Virus record (IMG/VR): IMGVR_UViG_3300035670_001044
Location: 1-27,603 of that record
DNA: 27,603 bases
Direction: 5' to 3' (one strand)
Origin: a virus
A model generated the notes under the pieces. That model did not search any database, was not told the DNA's origin, and worked only from the letters and a program-made list of their open reading frames with translations. This document shows, piece by piece, positions 2,685-27,603 of this stretch; position 1 is the stretch's first letter, and each line of letters begins with the position of its first letter. Made by a program: the position numbers and the translations under genes.

Positions 2685-3680
2685 ATGGCCAGAACAGCGG
2701 TAATCGGGTTTACTGAACCGTTTGTTGGTACCAGAAGGTTTTATGTTGGTACTCCTGTAGCGCGTACTGCTACGGGTTCTGGTACTGGTTCTGCGTCTGC
2801 TGCTGAAGTTCTTGTTGCTATTCGTACCGCTACGGGTTCTGGCACTGGAACAAGTTCTGCTGTTCGTGTCGTTATCAGGTTCCGTACCGCGACTGGTGCT
2901 GGTGCCGGTGCTGGGTCTGCGGATCGTGTCATTGTCAAGTTGCGTACAGCAACAGGTTCAGGGGCGGGTGCTGGGTCTGGTGATGGGTTGGTTACTCGTG
3001 CGAGAACCGCAACTGGTTCTGGTGCTGGGGCTGGTTCTGCATCAAAACTGCATATTGCCCCGCGTACTGCGACTGGTTCTGGAGCAGGTTCTTCTTCGAG
3101 TGAGGAGCAACTGTTCACTGCGAGAACCGCTACAGGTTCGGGCACAGGTTCGGCGTCGGTTGATGGTGATTACATTCGGGTGCGCACCGCTACAGGATCG
3201 GGTGTCGGTTCTGCTGTAACGGTCATTGTTCGTGTGCCGATCAGAACCGCGACAGGTTCGGGTACTGGTTCGGGGTCGGGTGTTGATCTTGTCATCACTT
3301 TGCGTACCGCCACAGGATCGGGTGCTGGTACGGCTGTTTCGGTTGGTGCTCGCGTGGTCCGCAAGTCAGGCACTGCGTCTGGTGCTGGTTCAGGGACCGC
3401 TCTTTGGGTGAAGTCACGCATTTTCCGTATGCCAGCCGATGACGAATATCCTGGTGGCCTGTTCGCCAACTTCGACACCAACCAGCGTTTGCGTTCGTAT
3501 GACCGTTCTGGTCGCCGTGCACGAAACCTATACAAGCTGACCGATGGCACCTACACCACCACCGAGCAACGAGATCAGGGTCAGGTGGAGAAAGTGTATT
3601 TGGGGTCGCATAGTAATTTTCTTACCGATACCGAGGTGTCCGAGTTGACAGCAGCCGGATACGGGAGTTACATAACCTGA
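2685..3680 (+). CDS. Repeat protein with ten 20-residue RTATGSG repeats, probable virion appendage
   Basis: A 331-residue protein in three parts. Residues 1-26 are a short beta-like lead. Residues 27-226 are ten consecutive repeats of exactly 20 residues, each starting RTATGSG or RTATGAG, followed by T/A-G-rich positions and then an alternating hydrophobic half (for example EVLVAI, RVIVKL, DLVITL). An eleventh, degenerate copy spans 227-246. Residues about 247-331 form a C-terminal domain (NFDTNQRLRSYDRSGRRARNLYKL ... GSHSNFLTDTEVSELTAAGYGSYIT) that is homologous to the next gene product. Regular Gly/Ser/Thr turns alternating with strands suggest a beta-solenoid-like rod or spike, which is inferred. 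No enzyme motif is seen. The stop overlaps the next start (TGATG). Confidence 0.75.
   Translation: MARTAVIGFTEPFVGTRRFYVGTPVARTATGSGTGSASAAEVLVAIRTATGSGTGTSSAVRVVIRFRTATGAGAGAGSADRVIVKLRTATGSGAGAGSGDGLVTRARTATGSGAGAGSASKLHIAPRTATGSGAGSSSSEEQLFTARTATGSGTGSASVDGDYIRVRTATGSGVGSAVTVIVRVPIRTATGSGTGSGSGVDLVITLRTATGSGAGTAVSVGARVVRKSGTASGAGSGTALWVKSRIFRMPADDEYPGGLFANFDTNQRLRSYDRSGRRARNLYKLTDGTYTTTEQRDQGQVEKVYLGSHSNFLTDTEVSELTAAGYGSYIT
2763..3362 (+). repeat. Ten tandem 60-bp coding repeats
   Basis: Ten units of exactly 60 bases without any insertion encode RTATGSG-type 20-residue repeats; a degenerate eleventh unit extends to 3422. Synonymous codons vary freely between units (for example cgtactgctacg, cgtaccgctacg, agaaccgcaact), so the periodicity is kept at protein level and the array is not a recent expansion. 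Confidence 0.93.
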
Positions 3681-11510: not shown

Positions 11511-13004
11511 GTGCGTAACACACGCTGGCTGATCTTCGCACCCGTCGCATTTCTCGCCCTACTCCCACAACAAGTAAACGCTGAACCCCAACCAGGGTTG
11601 AACGCAGTCGGCTACACCATCGACCAAATCCCACCAGAGCGCTCAGATGATCTATACCCCATCTGCGGGTCCGAGGTAGAGAACAACATCAACCGTAACT
11701 TCAACGGTGAACCATTCCAAGAGTGCGGCTGGGATTTCTTCATGGTCCACTACACAGGGTTCATCAATCTGCCTGAGCACGAAACGATTGAGTTCATGGT
11801 GGCAGCTGACGATGGTGGCACGGTCAGTATCGCTGGGCAGGAGGTCGGTACTTGGGATTTGAAGGGTTGCTCTTGGTCGAGCACCATAACGCTTTCCGTT
11901 ATGCCTGGTTTGTATCCGTTGGATGGCTGGTTCTTTGAGGCTGGTGGCGGTACTTGTTATATGCTCGCTTGGAAGATTGACGACGCATATTGGGAGATCG
12001 TTCCAGAATGGGCATTTACAACAACATCCACCCCTGTGACGACGACCTCTACTTCTACTGTCCCACCAGAGACTGTCCCTGTCACGGACCCGCCTACTAC
12101 CACGACGCTTCAGGAAACCTCAACGACCGAGGAACCGACGACTAGTAGTTCTTCAACTCAGCCCACACCGCCAGCCACAACAACCCTGCCACCAGCAGAA
12201 GAACAAACGCAGTCGCCCCCCACAGGAACATCAACGTCCACCACAGCACCGTCAACATCTACTCCTCCTTCAACCGTCGCTGAACCATCCACCACAGTAA
12301 CAACTGAACCGGAAACAACAACCAGTTCATCTACGAGTACGTCGCCACCAGCCACGTCAACCACACCACAAGAGGAATCTCCACCGCCATCAGCCACGAC
12401 TGAACCTTCCACGACTGTGCCCCCAGTATCAACAACGGAAGCACCACAACCGCCAGTAACAGACCCAGAAGTTCCAGAAACCCAAACATCGGTGGACACG
12501 CTACCCCCGTTCGAGGACGATGTGGTGGAGGATCCGCAGGAACCAGCCGTAGACATACCTGTTGAGGATGCCCCCACAATCGACGCAGAGCCTCCTGTAA
12601 GCCCCGTAGACGAGAGCGAACCCCCTGTCAGCACTATTGATACCCCTGAAACGCTCCTAGAGGCTCTGGATGCGTCCTCCGAACCGACCCCTGCGCAAGC
12701 CGCCCAGCTTGCCACCAACCCGCAGGTGCTTGCAGTAGCAAGCGCAGAGCAGGCTGAAGCCATCTTCGAGGCGTTGAATGTTAGCGAATTAGATAACACT
12801 CAGGTCGCAGCCCTGATCGAAGCGGTACAGGATGCACCAGCCGAAGTACGTGAAGCGTTTGAGGACACCATTGACATTTTTGGTGAAGGCTTAGACGACT
12901 ATGTGCCCCTCGGATCCAACATCCCAGTCGGCACCAGACGCACACTTATCGCCGTAACAGCAGGAATAACGCTCGCAGCAGCAGGTACTAGAATACGGCG
13001 CTGA
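11511..13004 (+). CDS. Secreted, membrane-anchored PA14-domain protein with Thr/Ser/Pro stalk
   Basis: A 497-residue protein from GTG 11511. Residues 1-24 are a signal peptide (Arg/Trp, then LIFAPVAFLALL, cleavage after VNA). Residues about 30-160 are a PA14-like carbohydrate-binding beta domain, recognised from VHYTGFINLPEHETIEFMVAADDGG and the end PGLYPLDGWFFEAGGGTCYMLAW; it has several Cys (in CGSEV, QECGW, KGCSW, GTCYM) that could form disulfides. Residues about 165-345 are an unstructured Thr/Ser/Pro stalk, a good O-glycosylation target. Then come an acidic Pro-rich stretch, a helical domain (QAEAIFEALNVSELDNTQVAALIEAVQDAPAEVREAFEDTIDIF) and a C-terminal membrane segment (TLIAVTAGITLAAAG) with a basic end. 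It resembles an actinobacterial surface protein. A role in superinfection exclusion, lysis or cell-surface remodelling is inferred from the lysis genes beside it. Confidence 0.82.
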   Translation: MRNTRWLIFAPVAFLALLPQQVNAEPQPGLNAVGYTIDQIPPERSDDLYPICGSEVENNINRNFNGEPFQECGWDFFMVHYTGFINLPEHETIEFMVAADDGGTVSIAGQEVGTWDLKGCSWSSTITLSVMPGLYPLDGWFFEAGGGTCYMLAWKIDDAYWEIVPEWAFTTTSTPVTTTSTSTVPPETVPVTDPPTTTTLQETSTTEEPTTSSSSTQPTPPATTTLPPAEEQTQSPPTGTSTSTTAPSTSTPPSTVAEPSTTVTTEPETTTSSSTSTSPPATSTTPQEESPPPSATTEPSTTVPPVSTTEAPQPPVTDPEVPETQTSVDTLPPFEDDVVEDPQEPAVDIPVEDAPTIDAEPPVSPVDESEPPVSTIDTPETLLEALDASSEPTPAQAAQLATNPQVLAVASAEQAEAIFEALNVSELDNTQVAALIEAVQDAPAEVREAFEDTIDIFGEGLDDYVPLGSNIPVGTRRTLIAVTAGITLAAAGTRIRR

Positions 13005-20490: not shown

Positions 20491-20835
20491 ATGACACCAG
20501 CGGAAATAGATCTCTTTGTGGACCGTCTCTGCTCATTCTGGCCGACTACGAACATCGCACGAAACACATTGAAGAACGGGTGGAAACACTCCGAAATCAT
20601 CATCGACGCAACCAGCGACCACGGCAAACAGGTACTCGCGGACTGCAAACCGTTACCAAAGTTTCCAGACCTGAACGCTATCGAAGCGATGTTTCGTAAG
20701 GTGATGAACCGCCAGCTCGCAGAGATCGGTTGCGACAAGTGCGGCAACACCGGCTTCATCGAAGGCACACCCATCCAACAGCTCGGCTTCACCTACAGAA
20801 CATCCCAATACTGCTCGTGCAGGAGAACACAATGA
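20491..20835 (+). CDS. Replicative helicase loader-like protein with C-terminal zinc motif
   Basis: A 114-residue protein with an excellent Shine-Dalgarno (AGGAGGGG). The N-terminal helical part (EIDLFVDRLCSFWPTTNIARNTLKNGWKHSEIIIDATSDHGKQVLADCKPLPKFPDLNAIEAMFRKVM) has the layout of phage helicase-loader/inhibitor domains: a helical block followed by KFPDLNAIEAMFRK. The C-terminus has a CDKCGNTG...YCSC zinc site (C81 and C84 by count, then two Cys near the end), typical of small phage replication proteins. It would help load the host replicative helicase, consistent with the DnaA boxes at 26.2 kb. The assignment is inferred from layout. Confidence 0.6.
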   Translation: MTPAEIDLFVDRLCSFWPTTNIARNTLKNGWKHSEIIIDATSDHGKQVLADCKPLPKFPDLNAIEAMFRKVMNRQLAEIGCDKCGNTGFIEGTPIQQLGFTYRTSQYCSCRRTQ

Positions 20836-22034
20836 AACCAACATTCGGATCCCTATTCGCTGGAGTCGGTGGCTTCGACATGGGCATGGAGGACGCAGGC
20901 TGGGAGTGCAAATTCCAGGTCGAATGGGACAAACACTGCCAACACATCCTCAACAAACACTGGCCCGACATCCCGAAATGGGGTGATGTATCCACAGTAA
21001 GTGGCACAGAGATCCCACCTGTGGACTGCATCATCTTCGGATCACCATGCCAAGACCTCTCCGTAGCAGGCAAACGAGCAGGTCTACAAGGGGAACGCTC
21101 AGGATTATTTTACGAAGCAGTACGAATCATAAAGGAGATGCGTCATGTCACAAATGGAACTTTTCCCCGATGGGCAATCTGGGAGAACGTCGCCGGAGCC
21201 TTGTCCTCCAACAACGGAAGGGATTTTGCAGCAGTCATCAGTGAAATGGCTGAAGCAGGGGCGGTTCTCCAAGAATACGCTCTCTTGGATGCGCAGTACT
21301 TCGGAATCCCCCAGCGACGACGTCGGGTTTTCTTGGTCGCTTGCTTCGATCCTGCAATCGCCCGCAACTGTCCCGACCCGCTACTACCTGTCAGCGAAAG
21401 CTTGCGAGGGAATACTGCGAAGGGCAAACCGAAGGGGAAAGTTGCTTCCAGAAAGATTGCGAACTGCCTTAGAGTCGGTAGTGGTGTTGGCGAAAGAGGC
21501 GACGGAACCGACAATCTCGTAATAGGATTTTCTCACACTCAAGGGTTATCGGCACAACCATCCGAAGTGGCATTTCCGACGTTGCGGACTGAGGGTTCAG
21601 GAATGGCTGTCGCATACGACGAATACAACGACACAATCAGCCCCGTACATCATGCGCTACGAGCAGGAACCAAACAATCCACAGGCGTACTCGTTGAGAA
21701 TGAATATGAAGAACCAACAGTGTTTCAACCTGGAACGATGGTGCGTTTGGGTGGTGGAGTTTGGGAAGGTACTGTTCCGACCCTTCGAGCAGAAGCCAAA
21801 CGCGGCGACAACGAACCGCACATTCACATTCACAACGCCGAACCGACAATGGCAGTACGCAGACTCACCCCCCTCGAATGTGAACGTTTGATGGGATGGC
21901 CCGATGACCACACCCGCTGGAAAGCAGACGGCACAGAACAAGCAGACACGCACCGTTACAAACAGTGCGGCAACGGGGTCGCATCACCAGTCGCCAAATG
22001 GATCGCATCCCACATCCTGAAAGCGCACCAATGA
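20832..22034 (+). CDS. DNA (cytosine-5-)-methyltransferase
   Basis: A 400-residue C5 methyltransferase with motif I SLFAGVGGFDMG, motif IV FGSPCQDLSVAG with catalytic C73, motif VI WENV (117-120), motif VIII IPQRRRRVFL (159-168), motif IX RRLTPLECERLMGWPD and motif X YKQCGNGVASPVAKWI. It methylates host-type target sites in phage DNA, and the target is unknown. A region of about 130 residues between motifs VIII and IX is the target-recognition part and contains inserts. ATG 20832 has AGGAGA five bases upstream and overlaps the preceding stop. A complete second gene is encoded in another frame within 21145-21522, so motifs VI-VIII are dual coding. Confidence 0.93.
   Translation: MKPTFGSLFAGVGGFDMGMEDAGWECKFQVEWDKHCQHILNKHWPDIPKWGDVSTVSGTEIPPVDCIIFGSPCQDLSVAGKRAGLQGERSGLFYEAVRIIKEMRHVTNGTFPRWAIWENVAGALSSNNGRDFAAVISEMAEAGAVLQEYALLDAQYFGIPQRRRRVFLVACFDPAIARNCPDPLLPVSESLRGNTAKGKPKGKVASRKIANCLRVGSGVGERGDGTDNLVIGFSHTQGLSAQPSEVAFPTLRTEGSGMAVAYDEYNDTISPVHHALRAGTKQSTGVLVENEYEEPTVFQPGTMVRLGGGVWEGTVPTLRAEAKRGDNEPHIHIHNAEPTMAVRRLTPLECERLMGWPDDHTRWKADGTEQADTHRYKQCGNGVASPVAKWIASHILKAHQ
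21131..21144 (+). promoter_or_regulatory. Shine-Dalgarno inside the methyltransferase gene
   Basis: AAAGGAG (21131-21137) lies seven bases before ATG 21145. It is an optimal ribosome-binding site placed within the methyltransferase frame, where it encodes Ile-Lys-Glu-Met, and it serves the overlapping gene. Confidence 0.75.
21145..21522 (+). CDS. Overlapping gene inside the C5 methyltransferase (YYLSAKACEGILRRA family)
   Basis: A 125-residue frame lying wholly within the methyltransferase gene, shifted by +1. Protein: MSQMELFPDGQSGRTSPEPC, PPTTEG, then SSVKWLKQGRFSKNTLSW, STSESPSDDVGFSWSLASILQ, and the C-terminal VPTRYYLSAKACEGILRRAN-RRGKLLPERLRTALESV. That C-terminus (YYLS-KAC-GILRRA-RRG--LP--L--AL) I recall from phage proteins encoded beside cytosine methyltransferases. 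The frame has its own near-perfect Shine-Dalgarno. The N-terminal SGRTSPE and the SESP/LSxIL features also look conserved. It is probably a real, co-expressed partner of the methyltransferase. Function unknown. Confidence 0.75.
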   Translation: MSQMELFPDGQSGRTSPEPCPPTTEGILQQSSVKWLKQGRFSKNTLSWMRSTSESPSDDVGFSWSLASILQSPATVPTRYYLSAKACEGILRRANRRGKLLPERLRTALESVVVLAKEATEPTIS

Positions 22035-24308: not shown

Positions 24309-24989
24309 ATGCGATACACGATCGAACTACACACCGCCGCCGGCGCTCTACTTGCTGGCATATTCGACACACTGGAAACAGCCCGCACCGCCGCCACCGG
24401 TCATCGTTGCGCGATCCGCCCCATTATCGCCGCCGATGATCTCGCCGCCCTCATCGCAGCCCCAACCGCCGCAGCCCTCAAAAAATTGGTACTTGACGAA
24501 CCCGCCACCCATGCCCTAAATTACTTAGTAGGCGCAACACCGCGCCCCACAAACCAGGAGAAACCAGTGAAAGCACACGAATACGCCGAAACCATCGCGG
24601 AGGAAATCCGCGCATTAGAAACCGCACTCGATGGCCCTAGCCGTTCGTTTGATCCGGATGACGCAACCCAAGACGACGAACAGGACACGGACTATCGCGC
24701 CGCGCTCGACGTGTTGGAGTATGCCCACGACATTGACCCGACGGACATTCTCACCACCTACGAAAACGAAACCATTCTCGAACTCATCTACTGGCACGGA
24801 TCAAACCACACCACCCGCACCGAATGGCTGCGCACCTACGGCGGCCCCACTTGTCGGATCTTCTTCGAGGGAGACAGTTACGCCCAGATCGAGAGCACTG
24901 GCGACGACAACAACACCGCCCGCGTGAGTGTGTACGTGCCAACGCTCGCGAACATGGTCGATGAACTCGCAGAAATGGCCCGCGCATGA
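24309..24989 (+). CDS. Unknown protein; probable internal start at 24567
   Basis: The frame from ATG 24309 gives 226 residues, but two products are possible. Residues 1-86 (MRYTIELHTAAGALLAGIFD ... ) look like a small beta-alpha protein without a stop of its own. At 24567 a GTG follows the leader hairpin and CAGGAGAAACCA, and a promoter lies at 24493-24522, so a 140-residue protein (KAHEYAETIAEEIRALETALDGPSRSFDPDDATQDDEQDTDYRAALDVLEYAHDIDPTDIL ... ANMVDELAEMARA) is probably made as well or instead. The second part has an acidic linker and a beta-rich C-terminus. I do not recognise either part. The frame may be a fusion of a small gene with the leader region of the next. Confidence 0.55.
   Translation: MRYTIELHTAAGALLAGIFDTLETARTAATGHRCAIRPIIAADDLAALIAAPTAAALKKLVLDEPATHALNYLVGATPRPTNQEKPVKAHEYAETIAEEIRALETALDGPSRSFDPDDATQDDEQDTDYRAALDVLEYAHDIDPTDILTTYENETILELIYWHGSNHTTRTEWLRTYGGPTCRIFFEGDSYAQIESTGDDNNTARVSVYVPTLANMVDELAEMARA
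24493..24522 (+). promoter_or_regulatory. Internal sigma-70-type promoter
   Basis: TTGACG (24493-24498), an 18-base spacer and TAAATT (24517-24522). The start is expected near 24529, just before the leader hairpin at 24531. Its geometry with respect to the hairpin and ribosome-binding site repeats that of the promoter at 22601 (38 and 39 bases from -35 to stem). Confidence 0.6.
24531..24569 (+). promoter_or_regulatory. Leader module B: hairpin, AGGAG, GTG start
   Basis: GGCGC (24531-24535) pairs with GCGCC (24542-24546) around AACACC. Nine bases later comes AGGAG (24556-24560), then GTG 24567. The sequence from AGGAG to the third codon is the same as in module A. It decides the likely real start of the downstream protein. 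Confidence 0.7.
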
Positions 24990-25102
24990 TCGACCACCCG
25001 AACCCACTTGTCCGGCTCGCAGCCGCCGTCGTCATCGTCGGCCCCGCCATACTTGCGATGGAACTATTGACCCGCGCACAGAAACGAAACCGCCGCCGCT
25101 AA
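24986..25102 (+). CDS. 38-residue single-span membrane peptide
   Basis: MIDHPNPLVRLAAAVVIVGP, AILAMELLTRAQKRNRRR: a hydrophobic helix (LAAAVVIVGPAILAMELL) with a strongly basic C-terminus, so the N-terminus would face out. The ATG overlaps the previous stop (ATGA). Too short to name. A stretch of 95 bases after it (25103-25197) contains leader module C. Confidence 0.5.
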   Translation: MIDHPNPLVRLAAAVVIVGPAILAMELLTRAQKRNRRR

Positions 25103-25159
25103 CCACGGCCCCGCGCAGCCCCACCAGAGGCCACCACGAGCAAGACGTGAACGCGGACA

Positions 25160-25200
25160 CCCGCACAAGCGGGCAACCAAACAAGGAGACAAACCCAGTG
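25160..25200 (+). promoter_or_regulatory. Leader module C: hairpin, AAGGAG, GTG start
   Basis: CCCGC (25160-25164) pairs with GCGGG (25169-25173) around ACAA, nine bases before AAGGAG (25183-25188), which leads through ACAAACCCA to GTG 25198. The stem is the same as in module A, but no TTGAC-type -35 is found upstream, so this copy is probably within the operon transcript. Confidence 0.65.
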
Positions 25201-25791
25201 AACACACAAACCCAAACAACCACCCTCACAGCAACACTGCCAGACCTCACCGAGCTATTCAGAGTGGCAGCCCTATACACCAGCACCGACAAACCAGCAC
25301 TGGCAAGCGCCCTGATCGAACCAGCAGCAGAACACACCACAGCCACAGCCACGGACAGCACCGCCGCGATTATCTACGCCACCCAGTTAGTCAGTGGCAC
25401 AGGTCCAGCCATCCACTTGCCCGCCCGCGAAATCGCAAAGCACCTGGCAAACGCCGGCAAAACCATCGGCAAACGCCACACCGCAAACATGGGCGCAATA
25501 ATCACCGCCACCGCCGACACATGGAGTATCGAGATCCCCGCCGCAGGGATCACCAGCAGCGGCACACACCAACAACCCGCACACTGGCCCAACATGGCAC
25601 CACTATTCACCACACCAGAAGAACCCAGCACCACCCCCTACCGCATGGCAGCCGAACAACTCGACCGCCTCACCCGCACCGCCGACTACATCACCCACAC
25701 CCACAGCAACCCCACCAAACCCAACCACTACACCACCACCAGCAACCACGGCCACAGCCAAATAATCGTCATGCCTTGCCGCATGAACTAG
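25198..25791 (+). CDS. Sliding-clamp-like protein (short)
   Basis: A 197-residue protein that looks like a shortened DNA polymerase III beta clamp. Signs are LFRVAALYTSTDKPALASALIEPA (clamp-type helix and strand with the DKPAL turn), TATATDSTAAIIYATQLV (the ATDS strand), IHLPAREIAKHLANAGK, and a C-terminal end HSQIIVMPCRMN that resembles the LMPVRL-like clamp terminus. Bacterial clamps have about 370 residues in three domains; at 197 residues only two fit, so it would need to trimerise like PCNA. The composition is extreme: Thr-rich and C-rich codons. Last gene of the early operon, closed by a terminator. The assignment is by pattern and uncertain. Confidence 0.55.
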   Translation: MNTQTQTTTLTATLPDLTELFRVAALYTSTDKPALASALIEPAAEHTTATATDSTAAIIYATQLVSGTGPAIHLPAREIAKHLANAGKTIGKRHTANMGAIITATADTWSIEIPAAGITSSGTHQQPAHWPNMAPLFTTPEEPSTTPYRMAAEQLDRLTRTADYITHTHSNPTKPNHYTTTSNHGHSQIIVMPCRMN

Positions 25792-25828
25792 AGCGCACCC
25801 CAGCGCAACGCCCACCGAGGCGCAAATC

Positions 25829-25863
25829 GAGACCCCGCCCGCAACCCCCGCCGGCGGGGTCTC
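25829..25863 (+). terminator. Strong hairpin terminator of the early operon
   Basis: GAGACCCCGCC (25829-25839) and GGCGGGGTCTC (25853-25863) form a perfect 11-bp GC-rich stem with a 13-base loop. No U-tract follows, as is common in actinobacteria. It lies 38 bases after the last gene of the operon. Confidence 0.7.
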
Positions 25864-26022
25864 ACCATTCCCGCCCACCGAGGCCGAGCGCAACCACGCC
25901 GACACAACAACACCACACAGCACCACGACGTAGGCGACACACCGCGCCCGATACATTCCGCCGCCCTTAGCCCCGTTGCCGAGCGTGTCCCAGTGGGTAG
26001 GTGGGGGTCCGTGTGTGTGATC

Positions 26023-26037
26023 GAGTGTCGAACACTC
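26023..26037. promoter_or_regulatory. Palindromic operator-like site
   Basis: GAGTGT (26023-26028) and ACACTC (26032-26037) form a perfect inverted repeat around CGA. Size and symmetry suit a dimeric repressor. It does not match the actinobacterial LexA box layout. No regulator can be assigned. Confidence 0.4.
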
Positions 26038-26176
26038 TCACCAGCGCACAACACGACACCCGCCACATGCCAAACAGCCGCCACGATGACCGGGAGTATG
26101 CCGAGGCAGCCCTGCCGCAAGATATCTATAAGCGTTTCTGTACGTGTGTGGTTTTGTGTCGCGCTGCGACCGTGGG

Positions 26177-26219
26177 TTGTCCACAGGCTGTGGATAAGTT
26201 GGTTGGGGTCTGTGGATAT
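26177..26219. promoter_or_regulatory. Cluster of three DnaA boxes
   Basis: TTGTCCACA at 26177-26185 (the preferred actinobacterial box), TGTGGATAA at 26189-26197 (reverse of the exact consensus TTATCCACA) and TGTGGATAT at 26211-26219 (reverse of ATATCCACA). The first two face each other across three bases, forming a palindrome. It lies in a gene-free region at the skew switch, as expected for an origin using host DnaA. Confidence 0.7.
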
Positions 26220-26521
26220 GTTTGTGTTCGTGTGTGTACACACGCTGCTCGATGTATCTGTTTGAGTGTGTGTGTTGTTAGCTCCCCCCACGCTTCGCTC
26301 CTTTTTGGAGCAGGTGGCCGTAGCCAATGATTTTTAGCCGACACCTTCGATTGATTTGTTTACCCCTGTGAGTATCACCGTGGCTAGGTGGCTCTGTTGA
26401 CATATTGGGGTCGATCCCCGTTTCCGGTCACGTTTCGCGTTCCCACCCTGCTGTCACGATGTGTGGGGTCTAGCGCATGGTTGCCTCGCCTGCTTCCCAG
26501 CGGTGAGGGCTTGCTCGGTTG

Positions 26522-26689
26522 TTAGTTGGAGTGTAGCACACCTTTTTGTTTTTGTGCTGTCCAGCGGTCTGCTTGTTTTTGTGCGGAGCGGAGAAGTTGT
26601 TCGTCGGTGAGAGGTCGGGCTGGTTTCAGGTGTTTGCGTTTGATGATGCGTCCTGATGTTCCGAGTTTGCGACCCATAGCCGATAGCAT
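26522..26689 (-). CDS. Small basic protein on the minus strand (divergent to the adenine methyltransferase)
   Basis: A 55-residue frame on the minus strand, MLSAMGRKLGTSGRIIKRKH then LKPARPLTDEQLLRSAQKQADRWTAQKQKGVLHSN. Codons ending in C and A, and the balanced Lys/Arg/Gln/Leu composition, match the early operon genes and look like real coding rather than an antisense shadow. It is the only probable minus-strand gene in the window, divergent from the methyltransferase with eight bases between start codons. Start could also be ATG 26677 (MGRKLG). Function unknown; no clear Shine-Dalgarno. Confidence 0.45.
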   Translation of the reverse strand: MLSAMGRKLGTSGRIIKRKHLKPARPLTDEQLLRSAQKQADRWTAQKQKGVLHSN

Positions 26690-26696
26690 ATCTTGT

Positions 26697-27212
26697 ATGA
26701 GGGGTTTCGGGCATGAAAACGTTGTCAATAAGTCGGTTGAATGGTTTACGCCGCCACATATTTTTGAGGCGTTGAACATTGATTTTGATTTGGATCCGTG
26801 TTCACCGGTGGGTGGCGGGGATTGTGTTCCTGCGGTAACGAAGTTTTGTTTACCTGAGAAGGATGGTTTGGTGGAGCCGTGGTTTGGTCGGGTGTGGGTG
26901 AATCCGCCGTACGGTCGGGAAACTGGTGTGTGGCTTCGCAAACTTGCTGATCATGGTGATGGGGTGGCTTTGGTGTTTGCTCGTACTGGTACGAAATGGT
27001 TTCAGGATGTTGCTTCGCGGGCTTCGCTGGTGTGTTTTGTTGCTGGTCGGGTGCGGTTCATTTCTGGGGAAACTGGTGAGGTTGGGGATTCCCCTGGTGC
27101 CGACTCGATGCTGTTGGCGTTCGGTGAGCATTGTGCAGTGAAACTGTCGTTGTCTGGTTTGGGGGTGTTTGGGCGTATGGCCGCGTTGGACCCAAAAATC
27201 GTTTTACGTTGA
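26697..27212 (+). CDS. Phage DNA adenine-N6-methyltransferase (Dam-like)
   Basis: A 171-residue protein of the phage N-6-adenine methyltransferase type. Key parts: VNKSVEWFTPPHIFEALN (11-27), FDLDPCSPVGGG (30-41), a substrate loop, and the catalytic VWVNPPYGRETGVWL (67-80) with NPPY (69-72), then GVALVFARTGTKWFQDV and VCFVAGRVRFI. It methylates adenine, likely to protect against restriction or to mark the genome. The frame is open further upstream, but ATG 26697 gives a normal start. That upstream extension crosses the region used by the minus-strand gene and is not supported. G-rich, T-rich codons differ from the C-rich operon to the left. Confidence 0.9.
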   Translation: MRGFGHENVVNKSVEWFTPPHIFEALNIDFDLDPCSPVGGGDCVPAVTKFCLPEKDGLVEPWFGRVWVNPPYGRETGVWLRKLADHGDGVALVFARTGTKWFQDVASRASLVCFVAGRVRFISGETGEVGDSPGADSMLLAFGEHCAVKLSLSGLGVFGRMAALDPKIVLR

Positions 27213-27296: not shown

Positions 27297-27603
27297 ATGA
27301 GTGCTGGACGGAGTGGCAGGCGGCAGGTTCCGCCACAAGATGTTGCCCGTTTCTGGCAGGCCCGCGCATCAGGCATGACGATCAAGGAAGCAGCGAAGAT
27401 TGCTGGGGTGCATTACAACACTGCACAGGGGTGGGATGCGCGGAAACGTAAAGCGAAAGCAGAGTTGGAGATCGCCAAGCTTGATGGGGCGAAGATCAGG
27501 AAGGGGGAGGGTGGGGTTCAGCATGATGCGTGGCAGAAGGTTATGGATGTGTCTGATTTGCCACCGGTTATTCCGCATGATCGTTTGTCGGAGGATGCGA
27601 AAC
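27297..27603 (+). CDS. terL: Large terminase subunit, N-terminal part (truncated at window end)
   Basis: Open to the right edge; 102 residues visible. The N-terminus has an HTH (VARFWQARASGMTIKEAAKIAGVHYNTAQGWDARKRKAKAE, residues about 15-55), a basic acid-rich linker, and DLPPVIPHDRLSEDAK, a string that starts the ATPase region in many actinophage large terminases (LPPVIPxDRLSEEARRAL...). It would package DNA into the capsid with the portal. A small-terminase-like HTH fused at the front may recognise the packaging site. No Shine-Dalgarno is visible; TATGAT (27282-27287) nine bases before the ATG suggests a very short leader. The rest of the gene and the portal should lie beyond the window. 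Confidence 0.7.
   Translation, partial: MSAGRSGRRQVPPQDVARFWQARASGMTIKEAAKIAGVHYNTAQGWDARKRKAKAELEIAKLDGAKIRKGEGGVQHDAWQKVMDVSDLPPVIPHDRLSEDAK

Follow-up and report, generated by a model that had tools for sequence, protein, structure and literature searches.

In the IMG/VR viral record IMGVR_UViG_3300035670_001044 (27,603 bases, the whole of which was analysed and is called the window here), the plus strand changes its base composition within a region that contains DnaA boxes and no genes, and this raises the question of whether the replication of this virus starts there. The site is likely a replication origin: in the reading favoured here, to which a probability of roughly 0.6 is given, the region at 26.09-26.30 kb would be an origin fired in theta mode by the host replisome, assisted by DnaA and paired with an RNA control unit. 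An origin had been proposed by the initial annotation, and this proposal gains from the position of the skew minimum and from the boxes of the closest relatives, whereas the loader and clamp genes cited in its favour fell away and the most conserved feature of the region, an RNA, had been missed.

Regarding its content, the record is a fragment that lacks most late genes, and no terminal repeat was found along its 27,603 bases. Pfam and PHROGs profiles recognised genes for the major capsid protein, a WhiB-like protein, a YqaJ exonuclease, RecT, endonuclease VII and two DNA methyltransferases; an actinobacterial host is suggested by the WhiB gene, together with the capsid, which resembles those of Streptomyces phages, while a search of bacterial genomes with the capsid protein gave no match. 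The features of the right end of the window are the following, with the evidence for each in brackets.

25792-26696, no strand assigned: gene-free region (ORF list and sequence; frame-breaking indels with respect to the relatives).
25829-25863, no strand assigned: hairpin GAGACCCCGCC...GGCGGGGTCTC, which probably terminates transcription from the genes upstream (sequence; stem changes are compensated in the relative L090).
26097-26157, no strand assigned: box A, made of TGCCGAG, 21 bp, TATAAG and then GTGTGTGGTTTTGTG (profile hits in the family; it includes the keto minimum at 26131).
26177-26185, plus strand: DnaA box TTGTCCACA (actinobacterial consensus, PMC4285127).
26189-26197, minus strand: DnaA box TTATCCACA, facing the first box across a 3-bp gap (face-to-face pair kept in L089, L090 and L093).
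26211-26219, minus strand: DnaA-box-like sequence ATATCCACA (one mismatch).
26220-26243, no strand assigned: alternating GT/AC stretch forming an inverted repeat, GTGTGTGTACACAC (alignment; kept in close relatives).
About 26284-26523, minus strand: structured RNA of ~240 nt or longer (covariance model, covariation, GNRA loops).
26318-26346, minus strand: nearly invariant core hairpin of the RNA, 29 nt, GGUGUCGGCUAAAA-n5-UGGCUACGGC (exact matches, alignment).
26530-26538, minus strand: extended -10 promoter element TGCTACACT, upstream of the RNA (sequence; the -35 of the window is weak).
26697-27212, plus strand: Dam-type N6-adenine methyltransferase (Pfam PF05869, E 9e-16).
27297-27603, plus strand: N-terminal helix-turn-helix (HTH), small-subunit-like part of the terminase, cut at the record end (phrog_4102, E 0.004).

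The plus-strand ORFs stop at 25791, with the last ORF of the leftward arm, and the next one is the methyltransferase that begins at 26697; no recognisable protein gene was found within 25792-26696, and ARAGORN detected no tRNA or tmRNA. A minus-strand ORF at 25788-26327 was ruled out as a gene by the frame-breaking indels of the relatives, where changes of 1, 2 and 25 bases interrupt the minus-strand ORFs across the region.

As for the composition switch, the plus strand turns from C/A-rich to G/T-rich at 26.09-26.13 kb, and the base counts initially reported on its two sides are exact (33 C and 3 G at 25681-25740; 26 G and 11 C at 26881-26940). Over all 27,603 bases of the record, keto skew reaches its minimum at 26131, and the strongest switch between adjacent 1-kb segments is at 26086, with a score of 738 (mean 10, sd 155) against 302 for the next best. 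Exactly at this switch lies box A, a conserved bipartite element whose family form is TGCCGMG, ~21-23 bp, and TATAAG or TATTAT, the spacing of the divergent members having been judged by eye; its AGATATCTATAAG / TATATATGTATTA element is short and modestly AT-rich in the window. Relatives were collected through the N-terminus of the terminase (60 loci), the capsid protein (80 loci) and the methyltransferase (6 loci), and a profile built from six sequences located a two-part module, with box A on the left and part of the RNA on the right, in nearly all of them. Imperfect palindromes of the type CCACTCTGGGTGGT / CACTGTGTGTGG occur near box A in L089, L092, L096, L118, L155, L156 and L160; from their sequence, they could be operator or initiator sites.

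The RNA belongs to a structured family whose presence on the minus strand is near certain from sequence comparison; judged in the same way, the family is new and is the feature of the region that evolution has kept best. A covariance model built without the window sequence detected the copy of the window at 26384-26285 on the minus strand (59.7 bits, E 2e-12), and the 20 near-complete genomes searched with it each contained a single copy, while the 29-nt core has exact matches in 106 stretches of viral contig DNA. In the alignment of 41 members, all from outside the subgroup of the window, nine of the 24 consensus pairs have compensatory changes, standard pairs account for 97.7% of the cells, and covariation scores 0.394, compared with 0.120 for shuffles (0/500); covariation was lost when the partner was slid by one to three columns. 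An RNA on the plus strand was ruled out by two counts: the variable pairs read on the minus strand comprise 101 G-U against 5 A-C, and, among the small hairpins, 131 of 394 have a GNRA loop on the minus strand and 22 of 716 on the plus strand.

Of 66 non-redundant members, 36 have the consensus TTGNNA-N16..18-TANNNT ahead of the RNA on the minus strand, compared with 4 on the plus strand and 5.7 in mononucleotide shuffles, and the promoter of the relatives often carries TGCTACACT. The 5' end of the RNA was placed from this predicted promoter, while 26284 is the limit of the conserved part and not necessarily the 3' end of the transcript. The conserved part ends at its 3' side with GUGGGGGG, which is turned toward the origin; this end is ~65 bp from the nearest DnaA box, and the 3' side is 154 bp from the keto minimum. 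Rfam gave no match up to E 1 for the window or for the more distant relative L003, and a single chance-level hit (E 1.1) among ten further loci; blastn returned no match for the window region in isolated phages or plasmids, nor for two divergent members in isolated phages, the exact core pattern had none in the bacterial genome collection (genome_contigs), and no specific earlier description was found in the literature. Annotation pipelines now treat the place of this RNA as empty space.

What this RNA does is the point at which the favoured reading has its most serious competitor: the RNA might be a stand-alone or leader-type regulator of transcription, for instance one acting by antitermination or by binding RNA polymerase, unrelated to replication and adjoining the origin at the divide between early and late genes. 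This is tentatively held as the second choice, with about one chance in three. The RNA has its own predicted promoter, in the second clade of relatives the genes on its left run mostly leftward, as a leader needs, and in L155 and L171 a minus-strand hairpin followed by a T-rich run was seen by eye downstream of it, while no hairpin with a T-run was seen between the RNA and box A in the window. In addition, the second clade has the same RNA and box A without the skew minimum, so that the RNA is not tied to the skew. However, the genes on the left run mostly rightward in the window and in the genomes G003, G013 and G020, therefore the RNA cannot be their leader; moreover, its place beside box A is kept in both clades, which also speaks against this option.

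A bolder version of the origin reading would put the RNA within the initiation machinery: its G-run would form an R-loop on the C-run of the template, priming or licensing leading-strand synthesis by the replisome of the host, and the DnaA boxes would be a later addition of some lineages. The direction of the RNA, the G-run that it turns to the origin and the neighbourhood that it always keeps make a role in initiation or in its control plausible; the R-loop itself is a doubtful proposition which, if true, would define a new kind of phage origin. The known parallel is the ColE1 origin, where the structured RNA II primer is transcribed toward the start site, the primer is made by RNase H and the antisense RNA I provides control. 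As in RNA II, the RNA of the window is structured, it runs toward the start site and its 3'-side G-run is opposite to a C-run of the template strand; unlike ColE1, DnaA boxes and box A lie between the RNA and the switch, the sequence is unrelated, and no RNA I was identified here.

The DnaA boxes had been described as three, two of them facing each other, and they are indeed so, at 26177 (plus), 26189 (minus) and 26211 (minus), packed into 43 bp. The first of them, TTGTCCACA, is listed for M. tuberculosis and S. coelicolor as a high-affinity box (PMC4285127). Of 74 non-redundant origin spacers, 8 contain a close pair, with starts ~9-12 bp apart, where shuffles give 0.02, and the 8-mer core TRTCCACA gives 19 boxes in the same 74 spacers against 2.7 expected; the two boxes are face-to-face in the window, L089, L090 and L093, and head-to-tail in L092, L169, L188 and L192. 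Regarding their conservation in relatives, the DnaA sites are kept amid diverged flanks in all of the five closest terminase relatives, four of which have the pair (L089, L090, L092 and L093), while the fifth, L091, is cut at that place; G012, the nearest circular near-complete relative (40,040 bp, circular because its ends overlap each other), has them as well. Farther away, the boxes are mostly absent: 64 of the 74 related origin spacers have no exact box, and L003 keeps the switch and the other conserved blocks with no DnaA box. The boxes are thus specific to some lineages and do not define the family, and the origins of the members devoid of them must be opened in some other way.

DnaA is described as a transcription factor as well (PMC8203912), and it was considered that the boxes control a promoter or titrate the DnaA of the host instead of being initiator sites, an option that finds support in the majority of relatives doing without them. 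This is rather unlikely for the window, given that no more than 50-90 bp separate the pair from the skew minimum and that pairs recur at the same location in at least three further lineages (L169, L188 and L192).

The proximity of the terminase suggests another option, namely that the region is the start of DNA packaging (pac or cos), marked by the RNA and box A. In all the loci, the site is 0.5-2 kb upstream of the terminase; in G012 the small-subunit-like HTH and the large terminase form a single ORF of 686 aa, 546-2606 bp to the right of the RNA core, and L090 lacks the Dam-type methyltransferase upstream of the terminase. The closest isolated phages by capsid are Beephvirinae (Streptomyces phages Immanuel3 and Zeigle, 42-45% identity), which have the terminase at the same relative place, with the ends of their genomes just upstream of it; contig ends are also commoner just to the left of the RNA core, with 7 of 138 within 60 bp and 0 to the right. 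The 138 loci with the RNA core include L091, L123, L183, L217, L220 and L233, and the excess possibly derives from shared sequence or from DNA ends. Contig breaks are, however, also expected where strains have conserved sequence in common, the contigs G002, G010 and G012 run through the site and have their closure points at unrelated positions, and a packaging site alone does not make a composition switch that is independent of gene direction; packaging is therefore an improbable explanation of the region.

This switch is a property of the window clade. The local keto minimum is -131 to -419 bp from the 3' end of the RNA in 46 of 48 terminase-clade loci, which share ancestry and do not count as independent events, and the circular detrended minimum is -170 to -535 bp from the RNA core in 7 of 7 near-complete clade genomes, which were scored by pattern and of which one, G012, closes into a circle. 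The initial proposal would have been refuted by a minimum located elsewhere in a full genome; in G012 the genome-wide keto minimum coincides with the homologous site and is 326 bp away from the RNA core. To the left of the switch, the plus-strand keto skew at third codon positions is negative for genes of both orientations (-0.053/-0.205 in G012 and -0.113/-0.151 in G014, with simple non-overlapping ORFs taken as genes, so that some short leftward ones are possibly false); this excludes a simple effect of transcription in the window clade, and a skew independent of orientation is the expected sign of replication strand bias. That transcription or codon usage made the switch is hence very improbable, even if the skew does track gene direction in Immanuel3, Zeigle and the second clade, because the window-clade genes of both directions on the left share its sign.

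The origin reading also has its counterpoints, which are the 64 of 74 spacers without an exact box, the skew of the second clade and the unequal arms. In the second clade, the skew tracks gene direction and there is no minimum at the RNA; in G005 (L261/L262) its sign is even inverted and the RNA sits at the maximum. Because of this second clade, an origin is claimed for the window clade only. As for the arms, the keto maximum is -11.4 to -14.6 kb from the RNA core in the seven near-complete clade genomes, therefore the arms differ in length, at about 13 kb and 26 kb. A maximum ~11-15 kb to the left of the RNA occurs in the window (at 12017) and in G003, G006, G008, G012, G013, G014 and G020, and the two arms do not meet opposite the origin.

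An initiator of their own is usual in tailed phages of such size. For the loader-like and clamp-like genes that had been proposed for this virus, no Pfam or PHROGs profile gave support; the same profiles gave no match for an initiator, a helicase loader, a clamp or a DnaB-type helicase among the window proteins scanned, and DnaB_C was absent in 8 genomes, while the phage recombination set (YqaJ exonuclease, RecT and endonuclease VII) is present. With no recognisable initiator, loader, DnaB-type helicase or clamp in the phage, the host replisome is expected to serve the origin. Replication would start at or near box A, at about 26.13 kb, and proceed in both directions, and this bidirectional copying would make the leading strands G/T-rich over time on either side. 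In the lineage of the window, the DnaA of the host would probably sit on the face-to-face pair, and on the third box, and help to open the adjacent TATAAG/AT-rich stretch, after which the helicase and the polymerase of the host would be loaded. The RNA, made from its predicted promoter on the opposite strand and running toward the origin, would most likely be part of this control system, either regulating initiation or serving as the precursor of a primer. A family that lacks an initiator, has sites for that of the host placed at a clear skew minimum and keeps the folded RNA alongside would be a clean case of phage replication run by the host, with the origin and the RNA unit in a defined 0.5-kb fragment.

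Compared with known systems, the region resembles the chromosomal oriC of actinobacteria (Streptomyces, Mycobacterium) in the TTGTCCACA box, in being non-coding and in its location at the minimum of strand skew; it differs in that it has three boxes instead of a large cluster, it is not flanked by dnaA and dnaN, and most of it is taken up by the structured RNA and box A. Like a lambda-type origin, it presumably initiates theta replication through the replisome of the host; unlike it, neither an O-like initiator gene containing iterons nor a P-like loader was found here, and the site is outside genes, beside the terminase. Immanuel3 and Zeigle, unlike the family of the window, encode their own primase and a DnaB-like helicase; the covariance model found no copy of the RNA in them, they have no DnaA pair, and they depart from the window clade in the skew, as seen above. 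Among phage RNAs, GOLLD and ROOL are longer than the RNA described here, of which at least ~240 nt are delimited. GOLLD and ROOL are presented as large ornate phage RNAs (PMC12286853); the RNA of the window is similar to them, being a structured non-coding phage RNA that has GNRA loops and several stems, and differs in having no Rfam match.

Finally, some minor observations concern the genes of the window. Its two DNA methyltransferases are orphan enzymes, a C5-cytosine one at 20730-22034 and the Dam-type adenine one at 26697-27212, the latter adjoining the origin region. The last ORFs before the origin, at 24309-25791, have coding strands very rich in A and C, and encode a protein C-terminus made almost entirely of T, H, N, P and S, while the protein encoded at 2685-3680 consists of repeated RTATGSGTGSAS-like units and is apparently a repeat-rich structural protein.
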